NCBI RefSeq assembly: GCF_018138715.1
Contig: NZ_JAGSHX010000006.1
Location: 868,001-932,000 of the forward strand
DNA: 64,000 nucleotides
Direction of reading: 5' to 3'
Origin: Streptomyces asiaticus
GTDB taxonomy: Bacteria > Actinomycetota > Actinomycetes > Streptomycetales > Streptomycetaceae
Position numbers and translations under genes: made by a program. Below the pieces are notes generated by a model. It did no database searches. It worked only from the letters and a program-made list of their open reading frames with translations, and was not told the DNA's origin. The first letter of the stretch is position 1. Each line of letters opens with the position of its first letter. Below are positions 19,947 through 36,895 of this stretch, one piece after another.

Positions 19947-20719
19947 CCCTCCACCCCGATCGGCAGGGCGGTCGCGCCACCGTCGAGCACCAGGGTCTGG
20001 CCGGTCATCCAGGAGGAGGCGTCGGTGGCCAGGAACAGCGCCGCGTGTGCCACGTCCTCGACCGTGCCCAGGCGCCGCAGTGGCAGCTTCGCGGTGAGGA
20101 TCGGCTCCCGGACCTCCCACACCGCCCGTGCCAGCTCCGTCTTGATCAGTCCGGGGGCGATGGCGTTGACGCGGGCGCGCGGCCCGAGTTCGTAGGCGAG
20201 CTGCCGGGTCATGTGCAGCATGGCGGCCTTGGTGGCGTTGTAGTAGCCGATGTGCGGATCGACGATGAGCCCGCCGACGGAGGCGATGTTGACCACCGCT
20301 CCCCCGTGCTCGGCCATCCAGGCCCGCCAGGCACACCGGGTCCAGGCGATCATGCCGTACTGGTTGACCCGGACGGTCTTCTCCGCGCGCGGCAGGTCCA
20401 GGTCGAGCAGATCGCCGTGGTACGGGTTGGTTGCCGCGTTGTTGACGAGGACGTCGACCCGGCCGAAGCGGGCCATGGTCTCCTCGACGCACCGCTCGGC
20501 CTGCTCCGGTTCACCGGCGTTCGCCACCACCGTGTGTACGTCACCGTCGCCCTTGACGCGCAGCAACTCCTCGCGCGCCTCGGCGAGTCCGGCCGGTTTG
20601 CGGGCCGCGATCACCACGTGGGCACCGGCCGCCCGGTAGGCGGTGGCGATGCCGAGGCCGATGCCGCGGGATCCGCCCGTGATGACGGCCACCTTGCCGT
20701 CGAGGCTGTTGGCGCTCAC
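19943..20719 (-). CDS. SDR family oxidoreductase 2
   Basis: 258 residues: 'TGGSRGIGLGIA', 'NNAATNPYHGDLLDLDL', 'NIASVGG', 'YNATK' and 'APGLIKTELAR'. The Asn-Pro-Tyr after NNAAT is typical of the DHRS4-like/3-oxoacyl reductase group. GTG start overlaps the acyl-CoA dehydrogenase stop (GTGA). Expected hydroxyacyl-CoA or hydroxy-acid dehydrogenase. Confidence 0.9.
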   Translation of the reverse strand: MSANSLDGKVAVITGGSRGIGLGIATAYRAAGAHVVIAARKPAGLAEAREELLRVKGDGDVHTVVANAGEPEQAERCVEETMARFGRVDVLVNNAATNPYHGDLLDLDLPRAEKTVRVNQYGMIAWTRCAWRAWMAEHGGAVVNIASVGGLIVDPHIGYYNATKAAMLHMTRQLAYELGPRARVNAIAPGLIKTELARAVWEVREPILTAKLPLRRLGTVEDVAHAALFLATDASSWMTGQTLVLDGGATALPIGVEG

Positions 20720-21948
20720 GCTGCCCCTGCCTTCGTATCGGTCTTCTTCTTGTACGGCGCGAGCTCCTGGCGGGCCACCGTCCGCAGATGGACTTCGTCG
20801 GGGCCGTCGGCGATCTTCAGTGCCCGTGTGATGGCGTACAGCCGGGCCAGTACGGTGTCGTCGCTGACCCCCGCCGCGCCGTGCGCCTGCACCGCTCGGT
20901 CGACGACCTTGTGGGCGACCTCCAGCGCCGCGACCTTGATCGCGGCGACCTCCATACGGGCGGCGGCGTTGCCGGCGGTGTCCATCAGCCAGGCCGATTT
21001 GAGGACGAGGAGCCGCAGCTGCTCGATCTCGATGCGGCTGCGGGCGATCCACTCCCGGACCACGCCCTGGTCGGCGAGGGGTCCGCCGAAGGCGACGCGT
21101 TCGGTGACGCGCTCGCACATCAGCCGCAGGGCGCGCTCGGCGAAACCCACGGCGCGCATCGCGTAGTGCATCCGTCCGGGACCGAGCCGTCCCTGGGCGA
21201 GCGCGAAGCCCTCGCCCTCGCCGACGAGGATGTTCTCCACCGGCACGCGGACGTCCTCGAAGAGCACATCGCCGTGTCCGAGGCGGTCGGTGTAGCCGAA
21301 CATCGGCAGGTCGCGCAGGATCTTGACGCCCGGGGTGTCCCTGGGGATGAGCAGCATGGACTGCTGCCGGTAGGTGGGCGCCTCCGGGTCGGTCTTGCCC
21401 ATCAGGATGATCAGCTTGCAGTCGGGGTCGAGGATCCCGGAGGTGTACCACTTGCGGCCGTTGACCACGTAAGCGTCGCCGTCGCGGGTGATACGGGTGC
21501 GGATGTTGCGGGCGTCGGAGCTGGCGACCTCCGGCTCGGTCATGGCGAAGCACGATCGGATCTCCGCGTCGAGCAGGGGCCGCAGCCAGCGTTCCTGCTG
21601 TTCGGGGGTGCCGTACAGCGCGAGCAGCTCCATGTTGCCGGTGTCGGGCGCCGAGCAGTTGAACACCTCGGGACCGATGATGGATTCGCCCGCCAGCCCG
21701 GCGAGCGGCGCGTATTCCAGGTTGCTGAGCCCCGCGCCCCAGTCGCCGTGCGCCATGAAGAGGTTCCACAGGCCCTCGGCGCGGGCCTTGGCCTTCAGCT
21801 CGGCCATCACCGGCGGCAGGGCGTGCGGATCGTCCCCTTCGGCCAGTTGCCGGTCGTACGTGGCTTCCGCGGGGAAGACGTACTCGTCCATGAACGACCG
21901 CATACGGTCTTGGAGTTCACTCGCCCGTGGCGAGTATCCGAAATCCAC
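20716..21948 (-). CDS. Acyl-CoA dehydrogenase, ACAD11-like
   Basis: 410 residues, three-domain ACAD fold: 'SCFAMTEPEVASSDARNI' (FAD/substrate loop), 'YVVNGRKWYTSG', and the C-terminal 'KIADGPDEVHLRTVARQEL', which closely matches the end of animal ACAD10/ACAD11. In those proteins and in bacterial LvaC, the dehydrogenase works with an APH-type kinase to remove a phosphate from a phosphorylated hydroxyacyl-CoA; the adjacent kinase gene (38 bp upstream) supports that here. GTG start with AGGAG. Part of the ten-gene operon. Confidence 0.92.
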   Translation of the reverse strand: MDFGYSPRASELQDRMRSFMDEYVFPAEATYDRQLAEGDDPHALPPVMAELKAKARAEGLWNLFMAHGDWGAGLSNLEYAPLAGLAGESIIGPEVFNCSAPDTGNMELLALYGTPEQQERWLRPLLDAEIRSCFAMTEPEVASSDARNIRTRITRDGDAYVVNGRKWYTSGILDPDCKLIILMGKTDPEAPTYRQQSMLLIPRDTPGVKILRDLPMFGYTDRLGHGDVLFEDVRVPVENILVGEGEGFALAQGRLGPGRMHYAMRAVGFAERALRLMCERVTERVAFGGPLADQGVVREWIARSRIEIEQLRLLVLKSAWLMDTAGNAAARMEVAAIKVAALEVAHKVVDRAVQAHGAAGVSDDTVLARLYAITRALKIADGPDEVHLRTVARQELAPYKKKTDTKAGAA

Positions 21949-21986
21949 GAGTGCTCCTGTTCGGTGGGGTACGGACCGCTGCCGGG

Positions 21987-22961
21987 TCAGCCGAGGATGT
22001 CGCGGGCGGTGCGGATCATCGCGGCGATGGTGGGCGGCAGGCGTTCCTGATCCGGGTCGTGGTGTTTGCCCTCGCGGTGGCGGCGCAGGTTGTGGCCCAT
22101 GATCGCGGCCATCTTCATGCGGCCGAGCGCCCGGAACCAATCCATCGCGGGCAGCGCGGGCCCGCCGTCGCCGTAGGTGTCCAGCAGTTCCGCCTCGCCG
22201 GGCAGACCGGGCACGGCGTGTCCCAGTTGGGGGAAGTTGCGGTGGTCGGCGAAGAGCAGGAACCAGCCCAGGTCGATGCGGGGGTCGCCGACGCTCCAGA
22301 TCTCCCAGTCCACGACGGCCACCGCCCGCTCGCCCGCGCACAGCACATTGCCGAGCCGGAAGTCCCCGTGCAGCAGCACCGGCGGCAGGCCGCTTGGCAC
22401 GCCATCGGCGAGACGTACCAGCAACTCCTCGCCGCCGGGCCGCAGTTCGGCGGGAACGGCACGCAGGGTGCGGCTCCATCGGTCCAGCTCGCCGGAGGGG
22501 TCGAGCGGTGCGGGCGGGTCGAGCCCGGGGGTGTGCACATCGGTGCCGTGCAGCCGCCGCAGGACGGACGCGATCTCCAGCATCCGGGCGCGGGCCGTCG
22601 CGGCGGGCACCTCGTGGTCGTCCAGCACCGGCTCGACGGCCGCCCCGTCCGCGAACTCCATGGCGAACCAGGCGGGTTGTGTCTCGTCTACGGCCACCAC
22701 GCCCGGTACCGGCACCGCGGACCCGGCCAGCGCGCCCAGCACCCGTGCCTGGCGCAGCACGTCGTTGCGTCCGACGGGCCGCTGCCCCGGTGGCACGGCC
22801 TTGACGACGTACCGGGCGTCCCCGGCCGCGACCTCGTAGGTCAGCCCGGAGTGGCCGCCCGGCAGCACCCGCAACTCGCCGATGGCCGCGCCCGGGTGGT
22901 GGCGGGCGAGCCGGTCGCGGACCCGTGCGGCCAGCTCCGGCACCTCGGTGGCCATGTTCAT
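21987..22961 (-). CDS. APH-type kinase (ACAD11 kinase-domain-like)
   Basis: 324 residues of the aminoglycoside phosphotransferase fold: Gly-rich loop 'GGHSGLTYEVAAGDARYVVKA', catalytic loop 'LLHGDFRLGNVL' (Asp and Asn) and metal Asp in 'VVDWEIWSVGDPRIDLGWF'. It lies between two acyl-CoA dehydrogenase genes and matches the kinase domain fused to ACADs in animals, so it probably phosphorylates a hydroxyacyl-CoA rather than an antibiotic (inference). ATG overlaps the upstream ACAD stop by 4 bp. Confidence 0.88.
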   Translation of the reverse strand: MNMATEVPELAARVRDRLARHHPGAAIGELRVLPGGHSGLTYEVAAGDARYVVKAVPPGQRPVGRNDVLRQARVLGALAGSAVPVPGVVAVDETQPAWFAMEFADGAAVEPVLDDHEVPAATARARMLEIASVLRRLHGTDVHTPGLDPPAPLDPSGELDRWSRTLRAVPAELRPGGEELLVRLADGVPSGLPPVLLHGDFRLGNVLCAGERAVAVVDWEIWSVGDPRIDLGWFLLFADHRNFPQLGHAVPGLPGEAELLDTYGDGGPALPAMDWFRALGRMKMAAIMGHNLRRHREGKHHDPDQERLPPTIAAMIRTARDILG

Positions 22962-24160
22962 CGGACGGGCTCCTTGGGCAGGCCGAGGACGCGTTCGGCG
23001 AGGATGGTGCGCTGGATCTCGTCGGTGCCGCCCGCGATGCTGTAGCCGGGGGCGCCCAGCAGGTGCTCGGTCCAGGCGTAGGTGCCCCACTCCCCCGTGT
23101 CCGCCACCAGGCTCGGCCCCAGCAGCTCGGACACCAGGTCGCTGGTGCGCCGCATGGTCTCGGTGGCGTACAGCTTGCCGACCGACGCCTCCGCGCCGGG
23201 CTCGCGCCCCGCGACGAGGGCGGCGGTGACCCGCAGCCCCATGAGCCGCTGGACGAGGGTGCGGATGTGGAGGTCGGCGGCGCGCTGCCGCTCGGCGCCG
23301 GTGAGGGGGCGCGGCAGGTTCGCGGCCAGGTCCAGCGCCCGGTCGGCGTTGTCCAGGCCGAGGCCGCCGGAGTCGAGCCGTTCGGCGGCCAGCACGCTGA
23401 GCGTGACCCGCCAGCCCTCGCCGACCGGCCCGAGCCGGTCGGTGTCCGGCACCCGCACACCGTCGAGGTAGACCTCGTTGAAGCTGGTGCCACCGGTCAT
23501 CTGCCGGATGGGCCGTACGGTGACGCCCGGCGCGTCCATGCGCACCAGGAAGACGGTGATGCCGGCGTGCTTGCGGACGTCCCCGTCGGTGCGGCACACC
23601 GCCACGCCCCAGGTCGCGACGCGGGCGCCGGAGGTCCACACCTTGTGCCCGGTCAGCACCCAGCCCTCGCCCTCGCGCACCGCCCTGGTGCGCACCGCGG
23701 CGAGGTCGGAGCCCGCCTCGGTCTCCGAGAACAGCTGGCAGGCCAGTTCGTCGGTGCGCAGCAGGGGCACGAGCCAGCGGCTCTTCTGCTCCTCGGTGCC
23801 CCACAGGCCGATCGCGGGGGCGACGAGTGCCTGTGTCACGGGGAAGATCTCGGGGCGGTGGGGTATGTCGAAGGCCGCCTCCTCGGCGCGGTAGAGCTGC
23901 TCGTAGTACGCGGGCAGCCCCCGCCCTCCGTACTCCCGCGGCCAGTTGAACGCGGACCAGCCGTGGTCGTAGCGGGTGCGTTCCCACTCCTGGACGCGGG
24001 CGGTGTGCTCGCGCTCCTGCTCCTCGGTCCAGTTGTCGAACACGGCGACGGAGTCGGAGCCGCTGCCCCACTCCCCGTCGGCGGCGCGGGGCCGGGCGAC
24101 TCCGGTGAGCCACCGCCGGGCCGCGGCGCGGAACTCATCGGGTTCCGGGATGCCGCTCAT
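22958..24160 (-). CDS. Acyl-CoA dehydrogenase (FadE type)
   Basis: 400 residues. 'CQLFSETEAGSDLAAVRTRAV' and 'WVLTGHKVWTSGA' mark the FAD/substrate loop; the C-terminus 'GYSIAGGTDEIQRTILAERVLGLPKEP' is the usual FAD-binding end. The ATG at 24160 is preferred because AGGAGG lies 11 bases ahead; a GTG at 24172 overlaps that site. Introduces the alpha-beta double bond; the divergent dehydrogenase at 26.6 kb may be its heteromeric partner. Confidence 0.91.
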   Translation of the reverse strand: MSGIPEPDEFRAAARRWLTGVARPRAADGEWGSGSDSVAVFDNWTEEQEREHTARVQEWERTRYDHGWSAFNWPREYGGRGLPAYYEQLYRAEEAAFDIPHRPEIFPVTQALVAPAIGLWGTEEQKSRWLVPLLRTDELACQLFSETEAGSDLAAVRTRAVREGEGWVLTGHKVWTSGARVATWGVAVCRTDGDVRKHAGITVFLVRMDAPGVTVRPIRQMTGGTSFNEVYLDGVRVPDTDRLGPVGEGWRVTLSVLAAERLDSGGLGLDNADRALDLAANLPRPLTGAERQRAADLHIRTLVQRLMGLRVTAALVAGREPGAEASVGKLYATETMRRTSDLVSELLGPSLVADTGEWGTYAWTEHLLGAPGYSIAGGTDEIQRTILAERVLGLPKEPVR

Positions 24161-24190
24161 CTGCGCTGCCACCTCCTTTCAGCGGATGGT

Positions 24191-25336
24191 TCAGCGGGAC
24201 AGGACCGTGCAGGCGCTCACGCCGGGGGCGCCGTACACATGGGTGAAGCCGACCCTGGGCTCGTCCGGGACCTGGCGTTCGCCCGCCTGTCCGCGCAGCT
24301 GCTGGACGACTTCGTAGACCTGGCGCAGTCCCGAGGCGCCGATGGGTTCGCCGTTGGCGATGCAGCCGCCGTCGGTGTTGACCGGCAGCGTTCCGCCGAT
24401 CCCGGTGGCGCCCGAGGCGACCAGCCCCTCCTGCTCGCCGTCCGCGCAGAACCCGCACTCGGCCATGTGCATCACCTCGGCACCGCTCTCGGTGTCCTGC
24501 AACTGGCAGACGTCCACGTCGCCGGGGCCGACTCCCGCCTCCTCGAAGGCGGCGGCCGAGGCGTCACGGCTGACGCTGGCCAGTTCGCCCCCGGGGATCC
24601 ACGGGCTGAACACCTCGAACGAGCCGAAGCGCCGGGTGCGTACGACCGCCGAGCGCAGGGTGACCGGCGTGCCGTCCAGCGCGCGGGCGGCCTCGGGCGA
24701 GCAGAGGACCAGCGCCGCCGCGCCCGCTCCCGGGGAGCAGAACATATAGCGGGTCAGCGGGTCGCTGACCATCCCGGACTCCAGGATCTCCTGGGTGGAC
24801 AGCGGCTTTCGGCGCCATGCCTCGGGGGTCAGAGCTCCGTTGCGGTACGCCTTCTCGGCCACCAGGGCGAGGGTCCGCGGGGTGATGCCGTGGTCGTGCA
24901 TATAGCGCTGGATCTTCATGCCGAAGAACTGGGTGGTCACCATGAGCCCGTCGCTGCCGTACTCCGCTCCCAGGCCCCAGTCCTCGGGCCGCGGATCGAA
25001 GGCGCCGCGCGGGTGTTTGTCGAAGCCGACGGCGAGGACGACGTCGGCCATGCCGGAGCGGATCGCGTTCACGGCGGAGACCAGCGCGCTGCCGCCGGTG
25101 GCACAGCCGTTCTTGACGTTGACGAACGGCAGGCCGGTCAGGCCGAGTTGGGCCACCAGGGTGTCCGCGAGGCCCGCGCTGTCGCTGCCGCCGAACGCGG
25201 CCCCGACCCGCGACCACGGGATCCCGGCGTCCGCCAGCGCGGCGTTCACGGCGGCCACGGCCAGCTGCCGGCCGGTCGCCTCGGACCGGCCGAACGGGGT
25301 GCGCCCCGCGCCGCAGATCAGCACATCGGTGCTCAA
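24191..25336 (-). CDS. SCP-x/Ltp-type thiolase-fold protein
   Basis: 381 residues of the lipid-transfer-protein/thiolase branch: nucleophile Cys in 'VKNGCATGGSAL' (about residue 78) and the late loop 'NTDGGCIANGEPIGASG'. The usual His-Asp-Cys-Phe motif is replaced by 'CQLQDT'. Members paired with a DUF35 protein include thiolases such as BbsB and the steroid side-chain retro-aldolase Ltp2, so this may be a thiolase or an aldolase. TTG start overlaps the DUF35 stop by 4 bp (TTGA) after GAGGAGGG. Confidence 0.88.
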   Translation of the reverse strand: MSTDVLICGAGRTPFGRSEATGRQLAVAAVNAALADAGIPWSRVGAAFGGSDSAGLADTLVAQLGLTGLPFVNVKNGCATGGSALVSAVNAIRSGMADVVLAVGFDKHPRGAFDPRPEDWGLGAEYGSDGLMVTTQFFGMKIQRYMHDHGITPRTLALVAEKAYRNGALTPEAWRRKPLSTQEILESGMVSDPLTRYMFCSPGAGAAALVLCSPEAARALDGTPVTLRSAVVRTRRFGSFEVFSPWIPGGELASVSRDASAAAFEEAGVGPGDVDVCQLQDTESGAEVMHMAECGFCADGEQEGLVASGATGIGGTLPVNTDGGCIANGEPIGASGLRQVYEVVQQLRGQAGERQVPDEPRVGFTHVYGAPGVSACTVLSR

Positions 25337-25716
25337 GAGCCCTCCTCGCTCAGGGTCGTGGGCCGGGCCCGGGGCACCCCGGGGCCGGCGGTCACGGAAA
25401 GAGCCATGCCGATGCGGATGTCGTCGAGGTCGTCGACGTCCAGGACGGCGGCCACCCGTACGTCATCCGCCAACTCGACGTAGCCGAGGGCGAACGGCGC
25501 GAAGCCTCCGGGCGGGGCCTGGTAGGGCGGCGACTTGGGCGCGTACCGCTGCACCGTCCAGGTCCACAGCGTGCCCGTGCCCTGGAGGACCGCCGGATCG
25601 GCCGGCCCTCCGCAGCGCGGGCACGTGTCGTCCGCGGGATACACCGTCACCGAGCAGCCGGAGCAGCGTGCACCCTGGAGCCCGCCGGCGGCGGGGCTCC
25701 GCGGATCCGTGGTCAT
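25333..25716 (-). CDS. DUF35 zinc-ribbon/OB-fold partner protein
   Basis: 127 residues: a zinc ribbon ('CSGC' and 'CPRCGG', about residues 21-41) followed by an OB-fold ('LQGTGTLWTWTVQRYAPKSPPYQAPPGGFAPFALGYVEL'). DUF35 proteins bind acyl-CoA and form complexes with thiolase-like partners; the overlapping thiolase-fold gene downstream is the obvious partner. It starts 5 bp after the enoyl-CoA hydratase stop. Confidence 0.9.
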   Translation of the reverse strand: MTTDPRSPAAGGLQGARCSGCSVTVYPADDTCPRCGGPADPAVLQGTGTLWTWTVQRYAPKSPPYQAPPGGFAPFALGYVELADDVRVAAVLDVDDLDDIRIGMALSVTAGPGVPRARPTTLSEEGS

Positions 25717-25721
25717 CCGGA

Positions 25722-26510
25722 TCAGCGCCCCTGCCACTTGGGTTCGCGCTTCTCCAGGAACGCCGAGACGCCCTCGTTCGCGTCCTCGGAGTTGAGCGCC
25801 ACGCCCACGGCGAGGTGCTCCATCACCATCAGCGACTGGGTGTCGGCGTCCAGGCTGCGGTCGATCGTCATCTTGGTGAGCCACATCGTGAAGGGGCTCT
25901 TGTCCGCGAGGTGGCTGATGAACTCCTCCACCGTCGCGTCCAGCTCGTCGGCCGGGGCCGACTTGTTGATCAGCCCGAACTCGGCGGCCTCGACCCCGGA
26001 GAGCAGCTTGCCGGTGAGCATCAGCTCCTTGGTCTTACGGATACCGATCATGCGCGGCACCCGGTAGATCGGACCGGCCCCGCCGAACAGCGCACGGCGG
26101 ATGTGGAAGTCGCCGATCTTCGCGTCGTCGGCGGAGATGGCGAAGTCACAGGAGATCATGATCTCGAAGCCACCGGCGGTGACGTGGCCCTCCAGGACCG
26201 CGACCGAAGGGGTCTTCATCGAGTACAGGCGGTCGCACACCTTCGCGGACTTCACCGCGACGTCGATCGCGTTCGACTTGCCGACGTACTCGGCCTTCAG
26301 GCTGTCCAGGTCGAAGCCCGAGCAGAAGGTGCCGCCACGGCCGCGCACCACCAGGACCCGCAGGTCGGGGTCCTCGTCCACCTCGGTGATGATCTCGTCG
26401 AGCCGGTCCAGGATCGGCACCGTGACGCAGTTCTTCTTCCACGGACGGTTGAGCCACACCCGGGCGACGTGTCCATCGCGCTCGAACTGGATCTCGTCTT
26501 CCGTTGTCAT
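25722..26510 (-). CDS. Enoyl-CoA hydratase family protein, first gene of the ten-gene operon
   Basis: 262 residues of the crotonase fold: 'GGTFCSGFDLDSL' and 'VTAGGFEIMISCDFAIS' supply the oxyanion hole; 'RRALFGGAGPIYRVPRMIG' and a C-terminal 'NEGVSAFLEKREPKWQG' follow. ATG preceded by GGTGAGGG, with a TetR-type palindrome about 20-30 bp upstream, so this gene heads the unit hydratase-DUF35-thiolase-ACAD-kinase-ACAD-SDR-SDR-hydratase-thiolase. Confidence 0.9.
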   Translation of the reverse strand: MTTEDEIQFERDGHVARVWLNRPWKKNCVTVPILDRLDEIITEVDEDPDLRVLVVRGRGGTFCSGFDLDSLKAEYVGKSNAIDVAVKSAKVCDRLYSMKTPSVAVLEGHVTAGGFEIMISCDFAISADDAKIGDFHIRRALFGGAGPIYRVPRMIGIRKTKELMLTGKLLSGVEAAEFGLINKSAPADELDATVEEFISHLADKSPFTMWLTKMTIDRSLDADTQSLMVMEHLAVGVALNSEDANEGVSAFLEKREPKWQGR

Positions 26511-26527
26511 CCCTCACCCCTCTGAAA

Positions 26528-26541
26528 CTGAACTGAATTCA
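26528..26541. promoter_or_regulatory. TetR-type operator of the ten-gene operon
   Basis: CTGAACTGAATTCA, a near-palindrome matching the island consensus, 18 bp upstream of the first start codon. Confidence 0.7.
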
Positions 26542-26604
26542 CTACAACTCTGATTCCAATGCCGCACGGTGTCAAGCCCTTGATCGAGACATACCTATTG
26601 CGGT

Positions 26605-27786
26605 TCAGGCGGCGGGACGGGGGGTGGCGGTGCGGGCGGCGGGACCGACGAGCCCGGCGAGCCGGGCCCGGTGCTGGTCCGCGGTGCCGAACAGCACCTC
26701 GGCGCCGCGCGCCCGGCGCACATACAGATGGGCCGGGTGCTCCCAGGTGAAGCCGATACCGCCGTGCAGCTGGACATACTCGGCCGTCGCCAGGCGGAAG
26801 GTCTCGGAACAGACCACGGCGGCGGCACAGGCGGCCACCGGCAACTGCGGGGAGGCGACGGCCGCGCAGGCGGTCGCGTACGCGGACGCCGAACGCGCCG
26901 CCTCCAGCGCCACCAGCACATCGGCCAGCCGGTGCTTGACGGCCTGGAAGGACCCGATGGGACGGCCGAACTGGTGGCGCTGCGCCACGAACGCGACCGT
27001 GGCGTCCAGCGCGTGGCCGCTGCCGCCGACCTGCTCGGCGGCGAGCGCGGCCCGTCCGGCGTCCAACGTCGCCGACACCGCGCCCTCCGTGCCGTCCGCC
27101 GTGCCCTCGGCGCCGTCGGCCGCGCCTACGGCGGCGGCCGGGGCGCCCCGGAACTCCACCAGCGCCTGGCGCCGGGTCTCGTCCAGGACGCGGCGCGGAG
27201 TCCGCCGGCAGCTGTCAGGGGCGGGCTCACAGGCGAAGAGCCGGGGCCCGGCGGGCGTTCCGGCCCGCACCAGGATCAGCTCCGCACCGGCCCCGTCGAG
27301 TACGAAGTCGGTCTGCCCGCGCAGCACCCAGCCGCCGCTCCCCCGCTCCGCGGCGACGCCGGGCACGCCGTCGTCGAACCCGGCCACGGTGGCGGTGAGC
27401 GTGCCGTCGGCGATCCGGGGCAGATAGCGCTCGCATGCCGTACGGTCGCCGCTGAGCAGCAGGGCGTGCGCGGCCAGGACCACCGTGGGCAGCAGCGGCC
27501 CGCAGTACAGGGCGCGCCCGGACTCCTCCAGGGCCACGGCCAGCTCGGCGAAGGTGAAGCCCGACCCGCCGTACTCCTCCGGAACGGCCAGCCCATGGAC
27601 CCCGATCTCACGCGCGAGCCGCGCCCAGAGCGCTTCGTCGTATCCACGCGGGGTGGCCAGATGTGTGCGCAGATCCTCGACGCCGCTCGTCTCGGCGTAG
27701 AAGTCCCGCAGGACGGTTCGGAGTTGTCGTTGTTCATCCGTTTCGGACAGCAGCTGGGGGGCGATCTCGGGGTGGCGATGGTGCAT
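26605..27786 (-). CDS. Divergent acyl-CoA dehydrogenase subunit
   Basis: 393 residues with ACAD helices at both ends ('GVHGLAVPEEYGGSGFTFAELAVALEESG', 'FGRPIGSFQAVKHRLADVLVALE', 'LHGGIGFTWEHPAHLYVRRA'), but the middle beta domain lacks the usual T-E-x-x-x-G-S-D loop and carries an Ala/Gly/Glu/Thr low-complexity insertion (about residues 218-240). Such divergent members often pair with a second ACAD in alpha2beta2 enzymes, as in actinobacterial steroid side-chain dehydrogenases. ATG preceded by GGAGATCCC. Single-gene unit behind its own operator. Confidence 0.87.
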   Translation of the reverse strand: MHHRHPEIAPQLLSETDEQRQLRTVLRDFYAETSGVEDLRTHLATPRGYDEALWARLAREIGVHGLAVPEEYGGSGFTFAELAVALEESGRALYCGPLLPTVVLAAHALLLSGDRTACERYLPRIADGTLTATVAGFDDGVPGVAAERGSGGWVLRGQTDFVLDGAGAELILVRAGTPAGPRLFACEPAPDSCRRTPRRVLDETRRQALVEFRGAPAAAVGAADGAEGTADGTEGAVSATLDAGRAALAAEQVGGSGHALDATVAFVAQRHQFGRPIGSFQAVKHRLADVLVALEAARSASAYATACAAVASPQLPVAACAAAVVCSETFRLATAEYVQLHGGIGFTWEHPAHLYVRRARGAEVLFGTADQHRARLAGLVGPAARTATPRPAA

Positions 27787-27826
27787 GGGATCTCCATCGT
27801 GGTCGTACGACGGCCGGAAGATACAA

Positions 27827-27843
27827 GAATTGAACTCAATTCA
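27827..27843. promoter_or_regulatory. TetR-type operator upstream of the divergent ACAD gene
   Basis: GAATTGAACTCAATTCA, an almost perfect palindrome (GAATTGA/TCAATTC arms) and the best-preserved copy of the island motif; 41 bp upstream of the ATG. Confidence 0.75.
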
Positions 27844-27924
27844 AGACCGTAGGCATCGAACTCCGCGTGGGCAAGACCCGCACCGCGGGCAGCACCCGCA
27901 CCGCGCCCGCCCCGGACACCCGGC

Positions 27925-28728
27925 TCAGGCGGTGAACCGGCCGCCGTTGGCGAGCAGCACCGCGCCGACCAGGTTCGCCGCGGCGTCGCTCACCAGGAAG
28001 AGGGCGATCTCGGATATCTCCTCGGGCGTCGCGTACGGGCGCACCCGCGGGTCGGCGAAACCGGCCCGCAGCGCCTCGGGGGTGCGGGCCGCCATCCCCG
28101 TCTCGGTCGGCCCCGGCGCCACGACGTTCACGCGGATCCCGGACGCGATGACCTCCTTGGCCACGCCCTGGGCCAGCGCGTGCACACCCGCCTTGGAGGC
28201 CGCGTAATGGGGGTAGCCGACGGGGGCGTCGAAGGCCGACGACGAGCCGATCACCGCGATCGCCCCGGCCCCGGCGGGCCGCATGACCCGCACCGCGGCG
28301 CGCAGCACATGGAAGGTTCCGTCCAGGTTCACGCGCAGGACCCGCCGCCAGGAGGCGTCGTCGAGGGAGTCGGTCAGCTCGACCGGCCGCCCTTCGACCA
28401 CCGCGTCCGCGATGCGCCGCTTCGCCTCCGGATCGTCCACCCCCGCCGCGTGCACCAGGACGTCGAGCCGCCCGTACCGGCGCAGTACCTCCTGGAAGGC
28501 GCCGTCGACGGCCGCCGCGTCCGTCACGTCGAGCGCGATCGGCCTGGCGCCGGGCAGCTCCTCGGCGACCGCCGCGGCGCCCTCCCCGTTCACATCCGCC
28601 AGGACGACGGCCGCCGCCCCTTCCGCGGCCAGCTGCCGGGCGACCGCCGCGCCCATGCCGGAAGCGGCTCCCGTCACCATCGCGACCCGGCCGGCGAACC
28701 TCCCGGCGCGGACATCCCCGCGTGTCAC
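27925..28728 (-). CDS. SDR family oxidoreductase 3
   Basis: 267 residues from the GTG at 28728, which has AAGGGAG 8 bases ahead (a GTG at 28743 is less well supported). Motifs: 'TGAASGMGAAVA', 'VHAAGVDDPE' in place of NNAG, 'IGSSSAF', 'YAASK' and 'APGPTETGMA'. Asp after strand 2 ('VVLADVNGE') suggests NAD(H). Divergent from the alcohol dehydrogenase across a region with one operator. Confidence 0.88.
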   Translation of the reverse strand: MTRGDVRAGRFAGRVAMVTGAASGMGAAVARQLAAEGAAAVVLADVNGEGAAAVAEELPGARPIALDVTDAAAVDGAFQEVLRRYGRLDVLVHAAGVDDPEAKRRIADAVVEGRPVELTDSLDDASWRRVLRVNLDGTFHVLRAAVRVMRPAGAGAIAVIGSSSAFDAPVGYPHYAASKAGVHALAQGVAKEVIASGIRVNVVAPGPTETGMAARTPEALRAGFADPRVRPYATPEEISEIALFLVSDAAANLVGAVLLANGGRFTA

Positions 28729-28759
28729 ATGGACTCCCTTCACTTGCCAGGACCATCTA

Positions 28760-28773
28760 TTGAACCGACTTCA
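28760..28773. promoter_or_regulatory. TetR-type operator between SDR 3 and the alcohol dehydrogenase
   Basis: TTGAACCGACTTCA matches the consensus at both arms. It lies in the 95-bp divergent gap and could control both directions. Confidence 0.6.
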
Positions 28774-28823
28774 CCTCTGTTACCGTGGCAGCCGCAGCGC
28801 TGACAAGACCCGGGACGGTGAAG

Positions 28824-29864
28824 ATGAGGGCACTGCGGTTGACGGCCTGGGGCGAGGCTCCGGCATCGGTTGAGGTCGAGCGGCCCGTCCCCCACGGCGC
28901 CGAGGTGCTGGTGCGGGTCGAAGCCGCCGGACTGTGCCGCTCCGATCTGCACGTCATGGACGCTCCTCCGGGAGCGCTCCCCTACCGGCTGCCGTTCACC
29001 CTCGGCCATGAGATCGCCGGGCAGGTCACGGACCTGGGGCCGGACGCCGACGGGGTGGCGGCAGGTGACCGTGTGGTGGTCTACGGGCCGTGGGGCTGCG
29101 GCTCCTGCGCGCGTTGCGCCGCGGGCTCCGGCAACTACTGCGACCGGCGTGACACCCTCGCCTGGCACGGGGCGGGACTGGGCCGGGACGGCGGCATGGC
29201 CGAGTATCTGCTCGTCCCGTCCGCCCGCCATCTGGTGCCGATCGGCGACCTGCCGGCCGACCAGGCCGCCCCGCTCTCCGACGCGGGCCTGACCTCCTAC
29301 CACGCCGTGTCCGGGCTCCGGCCCGCACTCGGCGAGGGCACCACCGCCGTCGTCATCGGTGTCGGCGGGCTCGGCCACCTGGCCGTCCAGATCCTCCGTG
29401 CCACCACCGAGAGCCGGGTGCTTGCGGTCGATGTCCGGGAGGACGCCCTGGCCCTCGCGGACCGTTCCGGCGCGGACTTCTCCACCCTGATGCGGCCGGA
29501 CACCGCCCGCGCGCTGCGGGCGCGAAGCGGTGACGTGGGAGCGGACGCCGTGCTCGACTTCGTCGGCACCGCACAGACACTGGAACTCGCGGTCGGCGTC
29601 CTGCGCCCCGGTGGCGAACTCGCCTTCGTCGGAAGCGGGGGCGGCAGCCTGACGGTGGCCAAGCCGGGTGTCCTCCCGGCCGGCTTCCGGCTCTCGCTGC
29701 CCTTCTGGGGAACTCGACACGAATTGGCCGGGGTGGTCACGCTGGCACGTTCGGGAGCGCTCCGCGTCGAGACGGAACACTTCCCGCTGTCCGCCGCTGC
29801 GGAGGCGATCGACCGGCTTCGCCGGGGCGCGGCTCGGGGCCGGACCGTGCTCGTCCCCAACTGA
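28824..29864 (+). CDS. Zinc-dependent alcohol dehydrogenase (MDR family)
   Basis: 346 residues. Catalytic zinc ligands 'GLCRSDLHVMD' (Cys) and 'TLGHEIAG' (His-Glu); structural zinc Cys cluster in 'GCGSCARCAAGSGNYC'; Rossmann loop 'VIGVGGLGHLAVQ' with Asp in 'VLAVDVRED', favouring NAD. Oxidises an alcohol or reduces an aldehyde/ketone of the pathway. ATG at 28824 matches the family's start better than an upstream frame opening at 28785. Confidence 0.9.
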   Translation: MRALRLTAWGEAPASVEVERPVPHGAEVLVRVEAAGLCRSDLHVMDAPPGALPYRLPFTLGHEIAGQVTDLGPDADGVAAGDRVVVYGPWGCGSCARCAAGSGNYCDRRDTLAWHGAGLGRDGGMAEYLLVPSARHLVPIGDLPADQAAPLSDAGLTSYHAVSGLRPALGEGTTAVVIGVGGLGHLAVQILRATTESRVLAVDVREDALALADRSGADFSTLMRPDTARALRARSGDVGADAVLDFVGTAQTLELAVGVLRPGGELAFVGSGGGSLTVAKPGVLPAGFRLSLPFWGTRHELAGVVTLARSGALRVETEHFPLSAAAEAIDRLRRGAARGRTVLVPN

Positions 29865-29891
29865 TCACATTCGCGGTGAACCGATGGCTCC

Positions 29892-29936
29892 GGCTCAGGG
29901 ATGCCGGGCTCAGGGATGCCGGGCTCAGGGATGCGG
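29892..29936. repeat. Three 15-bp tandem repeats in the leader of SDR 4
   Basis: Units GGCTCAGGGATGCCG at 29892, 29907 and 29922 (last one 14/15). They fill the gap between the alcohol dehydrogenase stop and the SDR ribosome-binding site and are in frame with the SDR, where they would read LRDAG if translated. Confidence 0.9.
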
Positions 29937-29950
29937 AAGGGAAGTTCAGC

Positions 29951-30700
29951 ATGCGCTTCGACGGAAGAGTGGCGATCGTCACCGGCGGCGCCCGGGGCAT
30001 GGGTGCCACGCATGTACGGGAGCTGGTCGCGGAGGGCGCCCGGGTCGCCGTCTGTGACCTGCTGGACGACGAGGGGGAGGCCCTGGCCGGGGAACTGGCC
30101 CCTGCGCGGTACTGCCACCTCGACGTCACCGACGAAGCGGAGTGGCGGTCCGTCGTCCGCACGGTCGAGGACACCCTCGGACCCGTGGACGTCCTGGTCA
30201 ACAACGCGGGGATCATGCACTACGGCGGTGTGGAAGGGCAGTCGCCCGAGCACTTCCGCCGGATCATCGACGTCAATCTGGTGGGCGCCTTCCTCGGCAT
30301 GCACACCGTCCTCCCCGGTATGCGCGAGCGCGGCCACGGAGCCGTCGTCAACGTCTCCTCGGCCGCCGGGATGACGGGTTTCGCCCATGGCATCGGCTAT
30401 GTGGCGAGCAAGTGGGGGGTGCGCGGGATGACCAAGGCCGCCGCACTGGACATGGCGGGCAGCGGGGTGCGTATCAACTCCGTCCACCCCGGGGTCATCC
30501 GTACGCCCATGGGTGAGAGTGCCTCACCCGAACTCTTCGCTCATCAGCCCGTGGCACGCATCGGCGAGCCCGAGGAGGTCACCCGCATGGTGCTCTTCCT
30601 CGCGAGCGACGACGCCTCCTACACCACGGGTGGGGAGTTCCTCATCGACGGTGGCCAGACCATCGGCCTCGGCGGCCACTCCGCCACGACGGCGGACTGA
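29951..30700 (+). CDS. SDR family oxidoreductase 4
   Basis: 249 residues: 'TGGARGMGATHVRELV', 'NNAGIMHYGG', 'NVSSAAGMTG', 'YVASK' and 'HPGVIRTPMG'. 'VAVCDLLDDEG' (Asp after strand 2) suggests NAD(H); the layout resembles 3-alpha/20-beta-hydroxysteroid-type dehydrogenases, a group with broad cyclic-alcohol substrates. Follows the alcohol dehydrogenase by 86 bp, same strand, likely same transcript; GGAAGGGAAG upstream. Confidence 0.9.
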   Translation: MRFDGRVAIVTGGARGMGATHVRELVAEGARVAVCDLLDDEGEALAGELAPARYCHLDVTDEAEWRSVVRTVEDTLGPVDVLVNNAGIMHYGGVEGQSPEHFRRIIDVNLVGAFLGMHTVLPGMRERGHGAVVNVSSAAGMTGFAHGIGYVASKWGVRGMTKAAALDMAGSGVRINSVHPGVIRTPMGESASPELFAHQPVARIGEPEEVTRMVLFLASDDASYTTGGEFLIDGGQTIGLGGHSATTAD

Positions 30701-30735
30701 CGCGGCACGGTGGTCGGCGGCCACCGCGGCCGCCC

Positions 30736-32037
30736 CTATACGTCCTTGCGTACGGTGAACAGGGAACCGATCCCGATCAGGCAGACCAGCATGACGAAGA
30801 ACGCCGGGGAGAGCAGGTTCCCGGTCTTGTCCACGAGGAAGGCCGCGATGTACGGAGCCGTACCGCCCGCGAGGACGGTGCCGAGGTTGTACCCGATCGC
30901 CATGCCGGTGTAGCGGACCCGGCGCTCGAACAGATGCGGCCACAAGCTGGCCGCCGGGACCTGCACGAACGCACTGCCCAGCATCAGCAGGACATACGCC
31001 GCCCCGGCCAGGGCCAGGCTGTGCCGGCCCATGAGCATCATCGCGGGGTAGGCGGTCACCAGAAAGGCCAGCAAGCCGCCCATCAGGACGCGGCGGCAGC
31101 CGAACCGGGCGGAGAGCCAGCCGGCCGGGACCATGAGCAACACGGTGACCAGCACGACGCCCGAGCTCAGCCAGTACACCTTCGTGGTGTCGAATCCGAG
31201 GTTGGTGGTCATATAGATGCCGATGTACGTCAGCCCGAGGAAGATGGCGCCGCCCTGGGCCATGGCCAGGCCGACGGACTGCAACAGCGGCACACGGTGA
31301 GTGGACAGGACCTCCCGGATCGGAGCCGTGGGGATATCGGCGCGCTGTGCGGCCTCCTTGAATTCCGGGGTGTCCTCGATCCGCAGCCGGGCCCACAGAC
31401 AGATCAGGGTGAGCGGCACGGCCATCAAGAAGGGTAGCCGCCAGCCCCACTCGGCCATCTGGTCCTTGGTGGTGAAGGCGGAAATCGCTCCGGCCGTCGC
31501 GGCCGCGAACATGAACCCGAGGTTGGACCCGATGGGTGTGACGGCGCCGAGGAAGGCCCTGCGTTGAGGTGGCGCCGACTCGTAGATGTAGGTGTAGGCG
31601 CCGACGGACTCGCCGCCCGAGGAGATGCCCTGCACCATCCGGGTGAGGAAGAGGAGCACCGCGGCGACCACCCCGATCTGGCCGTAGGTGGGCAGCAGCC
31701 CCGTGACGCTGCTGGCCACCCCCATGCACAGCACCGAGGAGACCAGCGCCTTGCGACGCCCCCATCGGTCGCCGATCCATCCGAAGAAGACACCGCCGAT
31801 CGGCCGCACTACCAGGCCGGTGGCGAACACCGCGAGCGCCGCCAGCATCGAGGCCGTCGGATCGTTTCCCGGGAAGAACTGCGGAGCGATCGCCACGGCG
31901 AGATAGCCGTAGATGCTGAAGTCGTAGTACTCGATCAGGGTGCCTATGCTCCCGGCGAGCATCGCGCGCCGCACCGTCCGTGGATCGTACGACGCCGACT
32001 CCTCCCCTGGAGGTGCGGGCTGTTGTGTGGTGCTCAT
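30736..32037 (-). CDS. MFS permease, MHS (metabolite:H+ symporter) family
   Basis: 433 residues, 12 predicted helices. 'IEYYDFSIYGYLA', 'RPIGGVFFGWIGDRWGRRKAL' and 'RMVQGISSGGESVGAYTYI' are signatures of MHS carriers such as ShiA, KgtP and ProP-type symporters, which import organic acids. Likely uptake system for the island's substrate. Single-gene unit; a TetR-type palindrome lies about 65-75 bp upstream of the ATG. Confidence 0.9.
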   Translation of the reverse strand: MSTTQQPAPPGEESASYDPRTVRRAMLAGSIGTLIEYYDFSIYGYLAVAIAPQFFPGNDPTASMLAALAVFATGLVVRPIGGVFFGWIGDRWGRRKALVSSVLCMGVASSVTGLLPTYGQIGVVAAVLLFLTRMVQGISSGGESVGAYTYIYESAPPQRRAFLGAVTPIGSNLGFMFAAATAGAISAFTTKDQMAEWGWRLPFLMAVPLTLICLWARLRIEDTPEFKEAAQRADIPTAPIREVLSTHRVPLLQSVGLAMAQGGAIFLGLTYIGIYMTTNLGFDTTKVYWLSSGVVLVTVLLMVPAGWLSARFGCRRVLMGGLLAFLVTAYPAMMLMGRHSLALAGAAYVLLMLGSAFVQVPAASLWPHLFERRVRYTGMAIGYNLGTVLAGGTAPYIAAFLVDKTGNLLSPAFFVMLVCLIGIGSLFTVRKDV

Positions 32038-32099
32038 GTTCCGGCTCCCTTCCCAACGGCACGGTCCGGTGCCCTGCCGACGCCCGGGACGCTACAGAA

Positions 32100-32113
32100 C
32101 TGAACTCAGTACA
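32100..32113. promoter_or_regulatory. TetR-type operator of the MHS permease
   Basis: CTGAACTCAGTACA, identical over the first ten bases to the site in front of tetR. Confidence 0.7.
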
Positions 32114-32284
32114 GCTAGCCATCGAACAGGAGTTTTCTGCGGGAAGCGCGTCGGACGCCGTGGGCACGAGTGGGCGCGCGGACCAAAAGGGCTCTGAGCA
32201 TACACAGCCCGACCTGCGACTCAGGCGGCGGCGAAGCGCCACGCGGGACGGCCATGGCAGCGACACACGCCCGATCGGTTGATG

Positions 32285-32299
32285 ATCTGAATTGGATTC
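32285..32299. promoter_or_regulatory. TetR-type operator of the ACAD-kinase-SDR unit
   Basis: CTGAATTGGATTCGG, a weaker copy with CTGAAT/ATTCGG arms, about 90-100 bp upstream of the ACAD start. Confidence 0.5.
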
Positions 32300-32386
32300 G
32301 GTTTACTCGTAAGGGGCGGACGCACCATGTGCGCCGTCCGCGCCTCAGACCTACAGGTAGGCAGTAGCCAAGCTCGGGAGTGCAAC

Positions 32387-33589
32387 GTGCCCATCGGGTT
32401 CGAGATCGAGGAAAGAGTCGCGGAGATCGCGCGGCGCACCACCGAGTTCGTACGGGACGTGGTGATACCCGAGGAGCGGGTGTGTGACGGCGATGTCCAT
32501 GCCGGGCCGGAGCCGCTGCGCCGCCGGCTTCAGGACGCGGCCCGCGAGGCGGGGGTGTTCGCCCCGCACGTCGACGCCGAATGGGGCGGACTCGGACTGG
32601 ACCTGCGCGGGCAGGCAGTGGTGTTCGAAGCGGCCGGGTACTCGCTGCTGGGGCCACTCGCGCTCAACTGCGCGGCGCCCGACGAGGGCAACACACACCT
32701 GCTCGAGGTGGTGGCCACGAAGGAGCAGAAGGAGCGGTATCTGCGCCCGCTGGCGGCCGGTGAGACGCGCTCGTGTTTCGCGATGACCGAGCCGGCGCCG
32801 GGCGCCGGCTCCGACCCGCGCGCCCTCGCGACGACCGCGACGAGGATCGACGGCGGCTGGCGGATCGACGGCCGCAAGTGGTTCATCAGCGGCGCCGACG
32901 GGGCGGCCTTCGCCATCTGCATGGCCCGCACCAGCGGCGACCCGGGCGACCCGGGCGGCGCGACGATGTTCCTCGTCGCCGCCGACAACCCCGGCATGAA
33001 GATCGTCCGGAATATCGACACTCTGGACCGGGGTCTCTTCGGCGGCCACAGCGAAATCGCCTTCGAAGGCTGCGAGGTCGGGGACGAGGCCGTGCTGGGC
33101 GAGGTGGACCAGGGCTTCGGGTATGCCCAGGTACGCCTGGGGCCCGCGCGGATGACCCACTGCATGCGCTGGCTCGGAGTGGCCCGGCGGGCGCAGGACA
33201 TCGCCCTGGAGCGCGCGGCGGACCGTTCGGCCTTCGGCAAACCGCTGGCCGAACTGGGCATGGTGCAGCAGATGCTGGCCGACTCCGAGATCGACATCGA
33301 GACCGGCCGGGCGGTGCTGTGGCGGGCCTGCTGGGAGCTGGACCAGGGCCGCCCGGCCGCCCAGCACACCTCCATCGCCAAGACGTACGTCTCCGAGGCG
33401 GTGCACCGGGTGGTCGACCGGGCCGTCCAGATATGCGGTGCGCTCGGCATCTCGGGGGACGCCCCGCTGTCGCGGCTGTACCGCGAGGTGCGTCCGTTCC
33501 GTATCTACGACGGCCCTTCCGAGACCCATCGCTGGGCCATCGCCAAGCGCGCGGTGCGGGCGGCGCGGGAGCGGAGGGCGGCTCGGTGA
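32387..33589 (+). CDS. Acyl-CoA dehydrogenase, ACAD10/11-like
   Basis: 400 residues from a GTG with GGGAG ahead. 'SCFAMTEPAPGAGSDPRALATT' and 'WRIDGRKWFISGADG' are the FAD/substrate loop; the end 'RPFRIYDGPSETHRWAIAKRAV' again matches the ACAD10/11 branch. Its stop overlaps the kinase start (GTGA). With the following kinase and SDR it forms a second copy of the module found at 20.7-23 kb; the proteins are clearly diverged, so it is not a recent duplication. Confidence 0.91.
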   Translation: MPIGFEIEERVAEIARRTTEFVRDVVIPEERVCDGDVHAGPEPLRRRLQDAAREAGVFAPHVDAEWGGLGLDLRGQAVVFEAAGYSLLGPLALNCAAPDEGNTHLLEVVATKEQKERYLRPLAAGETRSCFAMTEPAPGAGSDPRALATTATRIDGGWRIDGRKWFISGADGAAFAICMARTSGDPGDPGGATMFLVAADNPGMKIVRNIDTLDRGLFGGHSEIAFEGCEVGDEAVLGEVDQGFGYAQVRLGPARMTHCMRWLGVARRAQDIALERAADRSAFGKPLAELGMVQQMLADSEIDIETGRAVLWRACWELDQGRPAAQHTSIAKTYVSEAVHRVVDRAVQICGALGISGDAPLSRLYREVRPFRIYDGPSETHRWAIAKRAVRAARERRAAR

Positions 33590-34614
33590 CCCTCCCCGGG
33601 ACGACGCCGGCCGGCGTCGACGTGGCCGCGCTGGAGCGCTACTTCGAACGCCACGTACCCGAGTGCGCGGGCCCGCTCGAGGTCACGCTCCTGGAGGGCG
33701 GGCGCTCCAACCTCACCTACACGGTGACCGATGGGACACACCGGTGGGTGCTGCGCCGGCCGCCACTGGGGGTGCTGACGCCGACGGCGCACGACATGGA
33801 CCGCGAATACCGCGTCGTCGCGGCGCTCGCCGACACCGCGGTGCCGGTCGCCCGGGCCGTGCTGTCGTGCACGGACCCGGAGGTGATCGGGGCGCCGTTC
33901 TGCGTCGTCGGCTTCGTGGAGGGCACGGTGCTGCGCGACGGCGACGAGGCCGCCGTACTCCCGCCGGACGACGCGCGGCGCGCCGCTGACACGCTGGTGG
34001 ACGCCCTGGTCACGCTGCACTCGGTGGACGCCGTCGGCGTCGGGCTCGGCGACTTCGGCCGGCCCGACGGCTATCTGGAGCGCCAGGTGCGGCGATGGCG
34101 CGGGCAGTGGGACAAGGTCGCCACGCGGAGCCTGCCCGACCTCGACGAACTGCACGGCAGACTGGCCCGCTCGCTGCCCGCGAGCGGCGCCCCGGCCATC
34201 GTGCACGGCGACTACCGCCTGGACAACGTCATCCTGGCACCCGGCGGCTTCGGGCGGATCGCCGCGGTCCTCGACTGGGAGATGGCCACGCTCGGCGATC
34301 CCCTCGCCGACCTCGGGATGCTGCTCATGTACTGGGACCGGACCTGCGAACCGGTCCTTGCGGCGCGGCATGTCCCGACGGCCAACCCCGGTTTTGGATC
34401 GGGGCGCGAACTGGCGGAGCGATACGCCGAGAAGTCCGGACGGGACATCGGCGCCCTGCCGTATTACCAGGCCCTGGGCTGTTTCAAGCTGGCCGTCATC
34501 GCGGAGGGCATCCACGCCCGCTTTTCGGCGGGACAGACGGTCGGCACGGGGTTCGAACGGGTCGGGTCCGCGGTGCCCGCGCTACTGCGCTCGGGGCTGG
34601 AACTCCTGCCGTGA
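33586..34614 (+). CDS. APH-type kinase (ACAD10/11 kinase-domain-like)
   Basis: 342 residues: 'EGGRSNLTYTVTDGTHRWVLRRPP' (Gly-rich loop and ATP lysine region), catalytic 'IVHGDYRLDNVIL' and 'VLDWEMATLGDPLADLGMLLMYW', nearly the same layout as the kinase domain of animal ACAD11. Predicted to phosphorylate the hydroxyl of a hydroxyacyl-CoA for elimination by the co-translated ACAD (inference from the ACAD10/11 and LvaA/LvaC systems). Confidence 0.9.
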   Translation: MTLPGTTPAGVDVAALERYFERHVPECAGPLEVTLLEGGRSNLTYTVTDGTHRWVLRRPPLGVLTPTAHDMDREYRVVAALADTAVPVARAVLSCTDPEVIGAPFCVVGFVEGTVLRDGDEAAVLPPDDARRAADTLVDALVTLHSVDAVGVGLGDFGRPDGYLERQVRRWRGQWDKVATRSLPDLDELHGRLARSLPASGAPAIVHGDYRLDNVILAPGGFGRIAAVLDWEMATLGDPLADLGMLLMYWDRTCEPVLAARHVPTANPGFGSGRELAERYAEKSGRDIGALPYYQALGCFKLAVIAEGIHARFSAGQTVGTGFERVGSAVPALLRSGLELLP

Positions 34615-36855: not shown

Positions 36856-36895
36856 GCGACTCCCCTCCGACCATGGGACAACCCTCCCAGCAAAA

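Follow-up and report, generated by a model that had tools for sequence, protein, structure and literature searches.

Removal of an unactivated hydroxyl group through phosphorylation and flavin-assisted elimination was assigned in 2024-2025 to mammalian ACAD10 and ACAD11 (PMC11342911, PMC12440821), in which a kinase and an acyl-coenzyme A (acyl-CoA) dehydrogenase are fused for the conversion of 4-hydroxyacyl-CoA. In these two papers, residue roles are given for both the kinase and the dehydrogenase half of ACAD11 (PMC12440821), ACAD10-dependent phospho-acyl-CoA arises in cells from 4-hydroxy-, not from 5- or 6-hydroxyhexanoate, the ACAD10 kinase favours the R form, and the split orthologues of Burkholderia replaced the ACAD10 halves in vitro and were active (PMC11342911). 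The subject of the present report is a window of 64,000 nucleotides (G000:C6:868001-932000) of an 11.88 Mb Streptomyces genome, in which codon-usage gene calling found 59 genes. Genes 12-36 form an island with two kinase-dehydrogenase pairs, KIN_A/ACAD_A (pair A) and KIN_B/ACAD_B (pair B). In our judgement, this island is probably one TetR-type regulon degrading an oxygenated carboxylic acid as CoA thioesters, with two modules for ATP-dependent dehydration of the type known from ACAD10/11 (LvaA-LvaC). Gene content, the clades of both dehydrogenases and of kinase B, the catalytic residues, linkage and a common operator support this directly; the reactions, their order and the binding of a TetR protein to the operator are what we infer.

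Kinases and dehydrogenases of pairs A and B

The members of both pairs, the short-chain dehydrogenase (SDR) genes beside them and a further dehydrogenase are located as follows.

20716..21903, minus strand: ACAD_A, acyl-CoA dehydrogenase of the ACAD10/11 clade with R..R.HYAMR and the catalytic DGPDEVH (PDB search, tree, residues)
21987..22961, minus strand: KIN_A, APH-fold kinase of a divergent subfamily, alpha-C Glu replaced by Gln and R176 by Gly, with HGDFRLGN and DWEIWS
32387..33589, plus strand: ACAD_B, deep-branching dehydrogenase of the ACAD10/11 clade with R..R.THCMR and DGPSETH
33586..34614, plus strand: KIN_B, kinase of the ACAD11/LvaA type (PDB matches, residues, tree)
19943..20719, minus strand: SDR21, short-chain dehydrogenase overlapping ACAD_A by 4 bp
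34644..35414, plus strand: SDR35, short-chain dehydrogenase starting 29 bp past KIN_B
22958..24160, minus strand: FadE24, PimC-like acyl-CoA dehydrogenase, not of the ACAD10/11 type; best NCBIfam model pimC, 174 of 624 bits (below cut-off)

Gene calling, together with a scan of the island proteins against Pfam and NCBIfam, confirmed what the original prediction had read from this DNA. The APH-type kinases at 21987 and 33586 (Pfam PF01636; E value 2e-30 for KIN_A and 3e-54 for KIN_B) each adjoin an acyl-CoA dehydrogenase, the C-terminal motifs DGPDEVH and DGPSETH are present in the alignment, and SDR genes stand alongside both pairs, SDR21 at ACAD_A and SDR35 after KIN_B. KIN_A is located 83 bp upstream of ACAD_A on the same (minus) strand, and ACAD_B is upstream of KIN_B on the plus strand with a 4-bp overlap. 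A second dehydrogenase, omitted from that prediction, is coupled to KIN_A by a 4-bp overlap: this is FadE24, which is without the ACAD11 residues.

Both dehydrogenases had been proposed to be of the ACAD10/11 type, and clade and residues agree. In a tree with 16 other acyl-CoA dehydrogenases of the same genome (one of them, L181, a 236-residue piece), ACAD_A and ACAD_B fall inside a 14-row clade with mouse ACAD11 at a support of 100/100, and the 16 paralogues, FadE24 and FadE28 all fall outside it. The best PDB matches of ACAD_A are ACAD11 (E value 2e-128) and the uncharacterised mycobacterial protein 4hr3 (2e-124), other dehydrogenases following from 1e-39. The residues R626, R637 and the catalytic D753 (numbered here and below as in mouse ACAD11) are kept in both proteins; among 18 other dehydrogenases of the genome, R626 and D753 occur in none (0/18 each) and Arg at 637 in two. 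On the tree and the phosphate-site Arg and Asp residues, ordinary FadE enzymes were rejected as an identity for the two. The same three residues are invariant in 120/120 homologues of ACAD_B, and in ACAD_A of the window and of 80 related loci. These sets, and the corresponding ones for the kinase, consist of nearest relatives (the best 120 of 1273 and the best 120 of 7969 homologues from the protein searches, and the best 80 of 345 KIN_A relatives from a scan that took one genome per species), so that invariance within them does not count as independent evidence. H634 of the HCMR motif is kept in ACAD_B and in 120/120 of its homologues, all at least 80% identical. In ACAD_A, position 634 is Tyr in the window and in 78 of the 80 loci; the remaining two (L147, L158) have His, in a more distant ACAD. 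Because Tyr replaces H634, we call ACAD_A a motif variant within the clade and not a plain member. A proline reported to distinguish ACAD10/11, according to PMC11342911, is also found in the alignment of FadE24 and FadE28 and was therefore set aside.

The two kinases differ in how closely they follow the ACAD11 type. For KIN_B the PDB matches are 9o56 (E value 6e-72), 3dxp (3e-57) and ACAD11 (5e-55), with the next at 9e-10, and in a tree including 17 unnamed kinases of the same genome it joins mouse ACAD11 kinase, 3dxp and 9o56 in a clade with a support of 99/100. Its catalytic D220 and N225 and the CoA-contacting R176 are kept, as they are in 58/58 KIN_B-type rows, some of which are one gene fetched twice. 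KIN_A keeps D220 and N225, as do 120/120 homologues, and the motif DWE is found in 29/29 aligned rows; position 176 is Gly in 103 of the 120 homologues, Ala in 12, Asp in 2 and Arg in 1 (2 others were not printed). Since R176 is not kept, KIN_A was not filed as a member of the ACAD10/11-LvaA kinases. It forms a clade of its own, on the same side of the branch as the ACAD11 kinases at a support of only 72/59. By profile it is nearest to 3dxp, ACAD11 and 9o56, and by fold to 3dxp. The 25-hydroxysteroid kinase of Sterolibacterium denitrificans ranks below 3dxp, ACAD11, 9o56 and Rv3168 in the profile comparison, and by fold Z score below 3dxp and tied with Rv3168. ACAD11 (8v3u) and 9o56 are not among the 50 best rows of the KIN_A fold searches, which is no argument against kinship. 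The assignment to ACAD11-type kinases holds for KIN_B; for KIN_A, with its separate clade, it is not supported.

A grouping of the kinases with true aminoglycoside kinases, named beforehand as the result that would speak against the interpretation, was not borne out: resistance families score far under cut-off, although the kinase tree contains no certified resistance enzyme. Antibiotic-resistance enzymes were rejected as an identity for KIN_A and KIN_B, neither of which reaches an NCBIfam resistance cut-off; the best models are APH(3') for KIN_A (37.1 of 205 bits) and Mph(A) for KIN_B (27 of 550), and aminoglycoside and macrolide resistance kinases match the KIN_A profile at 5e-7 or worse. 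Of the 120 KIN_A homologues listed, a few carry the name aminoglycoside phosphotransferase or streptomycin 6-kinase. The R86 described beside the alpha-C glutamate in PMC12440821 was not used, as the neighbouring Arg is residue 84 in the numbering adopted here.

Genome-wide, 3 of 28 APH matches have one of the 43 acyl-CoA dehydrogenase matches no more than 2.5 kb away, where 0.41 would be expected, and at least 3 such neighbours arose in 28 of 3001 random placements. The adjacency of kinase and dehydrogenase is not due to chance, its conservation being a stronger argument than the placement statistic. The third pair (L075), elsewhere in the genome, consists of an ACAD that shares 58% identity with ACAD_A and a kinase that shares 54% with KIN_B, with canonical residues in both. 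A kinase of these types stands beside an ACAD_A- or ACAD_B-like dehydrogenase in 49 of 50 loci from related genomes (L011-L060, some places fetched twice). More distant KIN_A relatives, at 35-38% identity (L071-L073), are found in loci which also hold ACAD11-clade dehydrogenases, with the motif HHAMR; the fourth such relative, at 39% (L074 9931, in G122), is the only one for which the 20 kb fetched showed no ACAD11-type dehydrogenase.

Taken together, residues and trees indicate that each pair is composed of one canonical and one divergent half. Pair B is a predicted canonical kinase with a deep-branching dehydrogenase, and pair A appears as a near-canonical dehydrogenase with the H634Y change and a kinase of a separate subfamily without the CoA-contacting Arg. 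Recent duplication of one pair into the other was rejected, because ACAD_A and ACAD_B, as well as KIN_A and KIN_B, are only distantly related and each occurs without the other.

Gene content, distribution and operator

The other genes of the island, assigned by Pfam and NCBIfam scans, are given below.

12451..13491, minus strand: metallo-beta-lactamase-fold hydrolase (MBL), by family scan
13488..14981, minus strand: AMP-forming acyl-CoA ligase, by family scan
15236-15571, minus strand: EthD-family protein, in the block 15236..16312
15582-15959 and 15956-16312, minus strand: two small proteins without a family match
16487..17110, minus strand: TetR-family regulator (TetR17), candidate operator reader
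17201..18349, minus strand: FadA-type thiolase (NCBIfam NF005865, 649.5 bits, cut-off 591)
18379..19182, minus strand: ECH19, enoyl-CoA hydratase/isomerase
19167..19946, minus strand: SDR20, short-chain dehydrogenase
24191..25324, minus strand: Ltp25, SCP2-thiolase-like, nucleophile Cys kept, GHP changed to GEP
25333..25650, minus strand: OB26, OB-fold partner of the ChsH2 C-terminal type (Pfam PF01796)
25722..26510, minus strand: ECH27, enoyl-CoA hydratase with EchA19 as its closest NCBIfam model (cut-off not reached)
26605..27786, minus strand: FadE28, acyl-CoA dehydrogenase, IpdE2/PimD-like, below cut-offs
27925..28743, minus strand: SDR29
28905..29864, plus strand: ADH30, zinc alcohol dehydrogenase
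29951..30700, plus strand: SDR31, closest among NCBIfam models to trans-4-hydroxycyclohexanecarboxylate dehydrogenase (261 bits, cut-off 400)
30736..31962, minus strand: MFS32, MFS transporter, closest to the metabolite:H+ symporter model (359 bits, cut-off 443)
35497..36855, minus strand: gene 36, FAD-binding dehydrogenase/reductase of the fumarate reductase/ketosteroid dehydrogenase fold

In Ltp25 the thiolase motif HDxF is replaced by QDTES, which along with the GEP change hints that it may be a retro-aldol lyase instead of a thiolase. Judging from their nearest models, FadE24 and FadE28 resemble the two partners of a heteromeric dehydrogenase. A hydroxycyclohexanecarboxylate dehydrogenase model is among the top three for SDR35. 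Apart from the distant ketosteroid dehydrogenase likeness of gene 36, the window genes scanned include no recognisable steroid-ring gene. The ligase gene is preceded by a 254-bp gap as called.

Within 10 kb and at 40% identity or more, the 80 loci contain FadE24 (80), Ltp25 (80), OB26 (79), ACAD_A (79), SDR20 (79), ECH27 (78), TetR (78), EthD (76), ligase (75), MBL (69), FadE28 (61), SDR35 (45), ACAD_B (7) and KIN_B (4), counts to be read with the knowledge that contig ends cut some loci and that pair B of the window begins about 9-10 kb from KIN_A, flanks of this size often missing it. ACAD_A is directly downstream of KIN_A in 78 of the 80 loci, and FadE24 directly upstream in 77. The hosts include Streptomyces, Rhodococcus, Nocardia, Amycolatopsis, Kibdelosporangium, Aeromicrobium and Pseudonocardia, and the cluster is also carried on a plasmid of Rhodococcus qingshengii, where the annotated neighbours name no substrate. 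In the Rhodococcus cluster, the neighbour at the position of the two small proteins (15582-16312) is annotated as NTF2 family. Many Actinobacteria thus have a catabolic cluster with pair A at its core.

Among 392 Streptomyces genomes KIN_A occurs in 29 and ACAD_B, by which alone the occurrence of pair B was scored, in 22 at an identity of at least 80% and in 44 at a looser threshold. KIN_A is also present in 21 of these 22 (hypergeometric p = 2.8e-27, a value inflated by shared ancestry); the two genes are within 15 kb on one contig in 19 of the 21 genomes and on different contigs in 2. Eight of the 29 Streptomyces genomes with KIN_A are without ACAD_B at 80% identity or more, one of them (G247) having a 74% homologue elsewhere. 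G317 has ACAD_B without KIN_A, KIN_B not having been searched there, and in G142 a pair B is present at lower identity. Because of this co-occurrence and linkage, and of the eight KIN_A genomes without ACAD_B, pair B is considered a frequent accessory to the pair A cluster; the physical linkage stands despite the inflated p value.

Comparison of promoter regions yielded the palindrome AACTGAAYYCAGTTC, which is matched within 2 mismatches at 17 places in the genome (24 rows merged by position). Seven of these are inside the island, six of which had been used in deriving the palindrome.

16351..16365: site ahead of gene 16
17162..17176: site ahead of the TetR gene, independent of the pattern derivation
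26526..26545: site ahead of ECH27
27828..27842: site ahead of FadE28
32098..32112: first of two sites in the MFS32-ACAD_B intergenic region
32289..32303: second site in the same intergenic region
36894..36908: site ahead of the FAD-binding gene 36, without a mismatch

In the 80 loci, 293 operator sites were found in 79, against 1 for the reversed pattern. Of the 293, 78 precede ECH27, 6 precede ACAD_B (5 of them shared with MFS32) and 44 are near no mapped gene start. No operator within 4 mismatches was found in G079 over the 581 bp that precede ACAD_B, and the nearest one in G011 is 1.7 kb away. The common predicted operator joins both pairs, the operon of the CoA ligase, the transporter and the TetR gene; the placement of the ligase (13488-14981, minus strand) in the same regulon is thereby supported, assuming one operon from gene 16 to gene 13. 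TetR17 would be the obvious candidate for the reader of this operator. Three regions outside the island have operator-like sites and nothing recognisably linked to the island. At L178 9609-10449 (G000:C6:229608-230448), three operator-like sites (2-3 mismatches) occur in 0.9 kb, next to genes without an evident island link.

Several further features were noted in the window. Genes for hydantoinase/oxoprolinase A and B subunits (2605-6482, minus strand) are apparently unrelated to the island. The region 37237-43416 (minus strand) has the appearance of a gluconate-type group, with an FGGY sugar kinase, a LacI-family regulator and a GntP permease. At 39996-42017 (minus strand), a lone piece of an AMP-binding domain (39996-40394) lies below a stop-interrupted ankyrin-like frame; these look like two gene remnants, and similar pieces exist in a close relative (L061). 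A TctC-type binding protein beside a Cache-domain sensor kinase and a response regulator (43580-47048) resembles a tricarboxylate-sensing system.

Proposed reactions and competing explanations

In the proposed pathway, the ligase would first make the acyl-CoA, and the kinase would then move the phosphate of ATP onto a hydroxyl of the hydroxyacyl-CoA, most likely the 4-hydroxyl. This position is assumed by default because of the 4-hydroxy selectivity of ACAD10 described in PMC11342911. In the flavin dehydrogenase the Asp would take the alpha proton with two Arg holding the phosphate, the expulsion of which would give a 2-enoyl-CoA with no net oxidation. Beta-oxidation could be completed by the hydratases, the SDRs, the Ltp25-OB26 lyase or thiolase, and the FadA thiolase. 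Pair A would be the constant core of this pathway and pair B an accessory for a second hydroxylated intermediate.

Phosphorylation followed by elimination is the best reading because ACAD_A and ACAD_B are both in the ACAD10/11-LvaC clade and KIN_B is in that of the ACAD11-type kinases. The chemistry suggested by the original prediction is therefore retained. Its candidate substrates, levulinate, lactones and ring-cleavage products, did not fare as well, as nothing points specifically to any of them and the separate canonical pair (L075) is located elsewhere. From the likenesses of SDR31, SDR35 and gene 36 it may only be guessed that the substrate is an alicyclic or branched (terpenoid-like) acid. 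A bolder proposal, which we regard as possible without favouring it, is that KIN_A and ACAD_A constitute a new ATP-dependent dehydration enzyme acting on a hydroxyl other than the 4-hydroxyl (e.g., a ring or tertiary hydroxyl in an alicyclic or terpenoid acyl-CoA), at the core of an undescribed degradation pathway widely shared by actinobacteria, with pair B removing a second hydroxyl from the same compound. No description of the cluster or its substrate was found in papers, a weak absence since only open-licence PMC papers were covered.

Alternatively, KIN_A might act on a free (e.g., tertiary or ring) alcohol, as does the Sterolibacterium 25-hydroxysteroid kinase, with ACAD_A acting elsewhere or on a phospho-compound that is activated later. 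The Gly at position 176 of KIN_A, and the rank of the steroid kinase behind 3dxp in both comparisons, are the results to be set beside this explanation, which we consider unlikely. Still less probable is an island equivalent to the lva operon, i.e., a pathway for levulinate or gamma-lactones. Kinase, ACAD11-type dehydrogenase, SDR and CoA ligase do occur together, and the metallo-hydrolase (12451-13491) could open a lactone, but its best PDB matches are uncharacterised and do not settle whether it is a lactonase. Moreover, the same genome has the canonical pair at L075, 86 of 90 sampled genomes of the genus hold a KIN_B-like kinase (E value 1e-40 or better), and the heteromeric-type dehydrogenase pair, Ltp25-OB26, the several SDRs and the ketosteroid-dehydrogenase-like flavoprotein would presumably be superfluous for a C5 acid. 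That the dehydrogenases are ordinary oxidising enzymes, with kinases directed at an unrelated metabolite or an antibiotic, is hardly credible, for although APH-family kinases are common (the 28 matches in this genome) and some KIN_A homologues bear resistance names, both ACADs have the phosphate-site Arg and the Asp base, the pairing is conserved, and the resistance models and kinases score as poorly as described above.

Comparison with known systems

Split pairs as such are already known from LvaA/LvaC and the Burkholderia orthologues. In those parts of the open-licence literature that were covered, no report was found of the KIN_A subfamily with a Tyr-bearing ACAD_A, of a two-pair regulon or of the wider actinobacterial cluster. 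The regulon provides natural variants of both halves, conserved across many species: a kinase without the CoA-contacting Arg and a dehydrogenase in which Tyr takes the place of the phosphate-site His. Such variants can test which residues fix substrate and position. They are also markers of an uncharacterised catabolic pathway, the kinases of which sometimes carry antibiotic-resistance names in databases.

The enzymes for the steroid propionate side chain include a FadE pair, ChsH2 and Ltp2. FadE24/FadE28, OB26 and Ltp25 are similar to this set in domain make-up; unlike it, the island has a crotonase-type hydratase. The Sterolibacterium denitrificans 25-hydroxysteroid kinase (PDB: 9fsg, 9ft5) is a distant APH-fold relative, which likewise activates a hydroxyl so that it can be eliminated. 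It differs in that its substrate is a free tertiary alcohol; according to PMC8449060, the corresponding lyase is unknown and the surrounding genes offer no candidate for it. LvaA-LvaC of the Pseudomonas putida levulinate operon and their Burkholderia orthologues are likewise a split kinase and dehydrogenase with an SDR and a CoA ligase nearby, a likeness of gene roles, not of alignments, with the lva roles as given in the original prediction and the two papers. Unlike the lva operon, the island has many more genes, a conserved operator and nothing pointing to a C5 substrate. With the fused mammalian ACAD10/ACAD11, the island shares the dehydrogenase clade, the phosphate-binding Arg and the Asp catalytic base, as well as the kinase fold and its catalytic motif, and R176 is also found in KIN_B. 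It departs from them in that its enzymes are separate proteins and two pairs occur in one regulon, in the Tyr of ACAD_A in place of H634, in the absence of R176 and the alpha-C Glu from KIN_A, and in the deep branch of ACAD_B.

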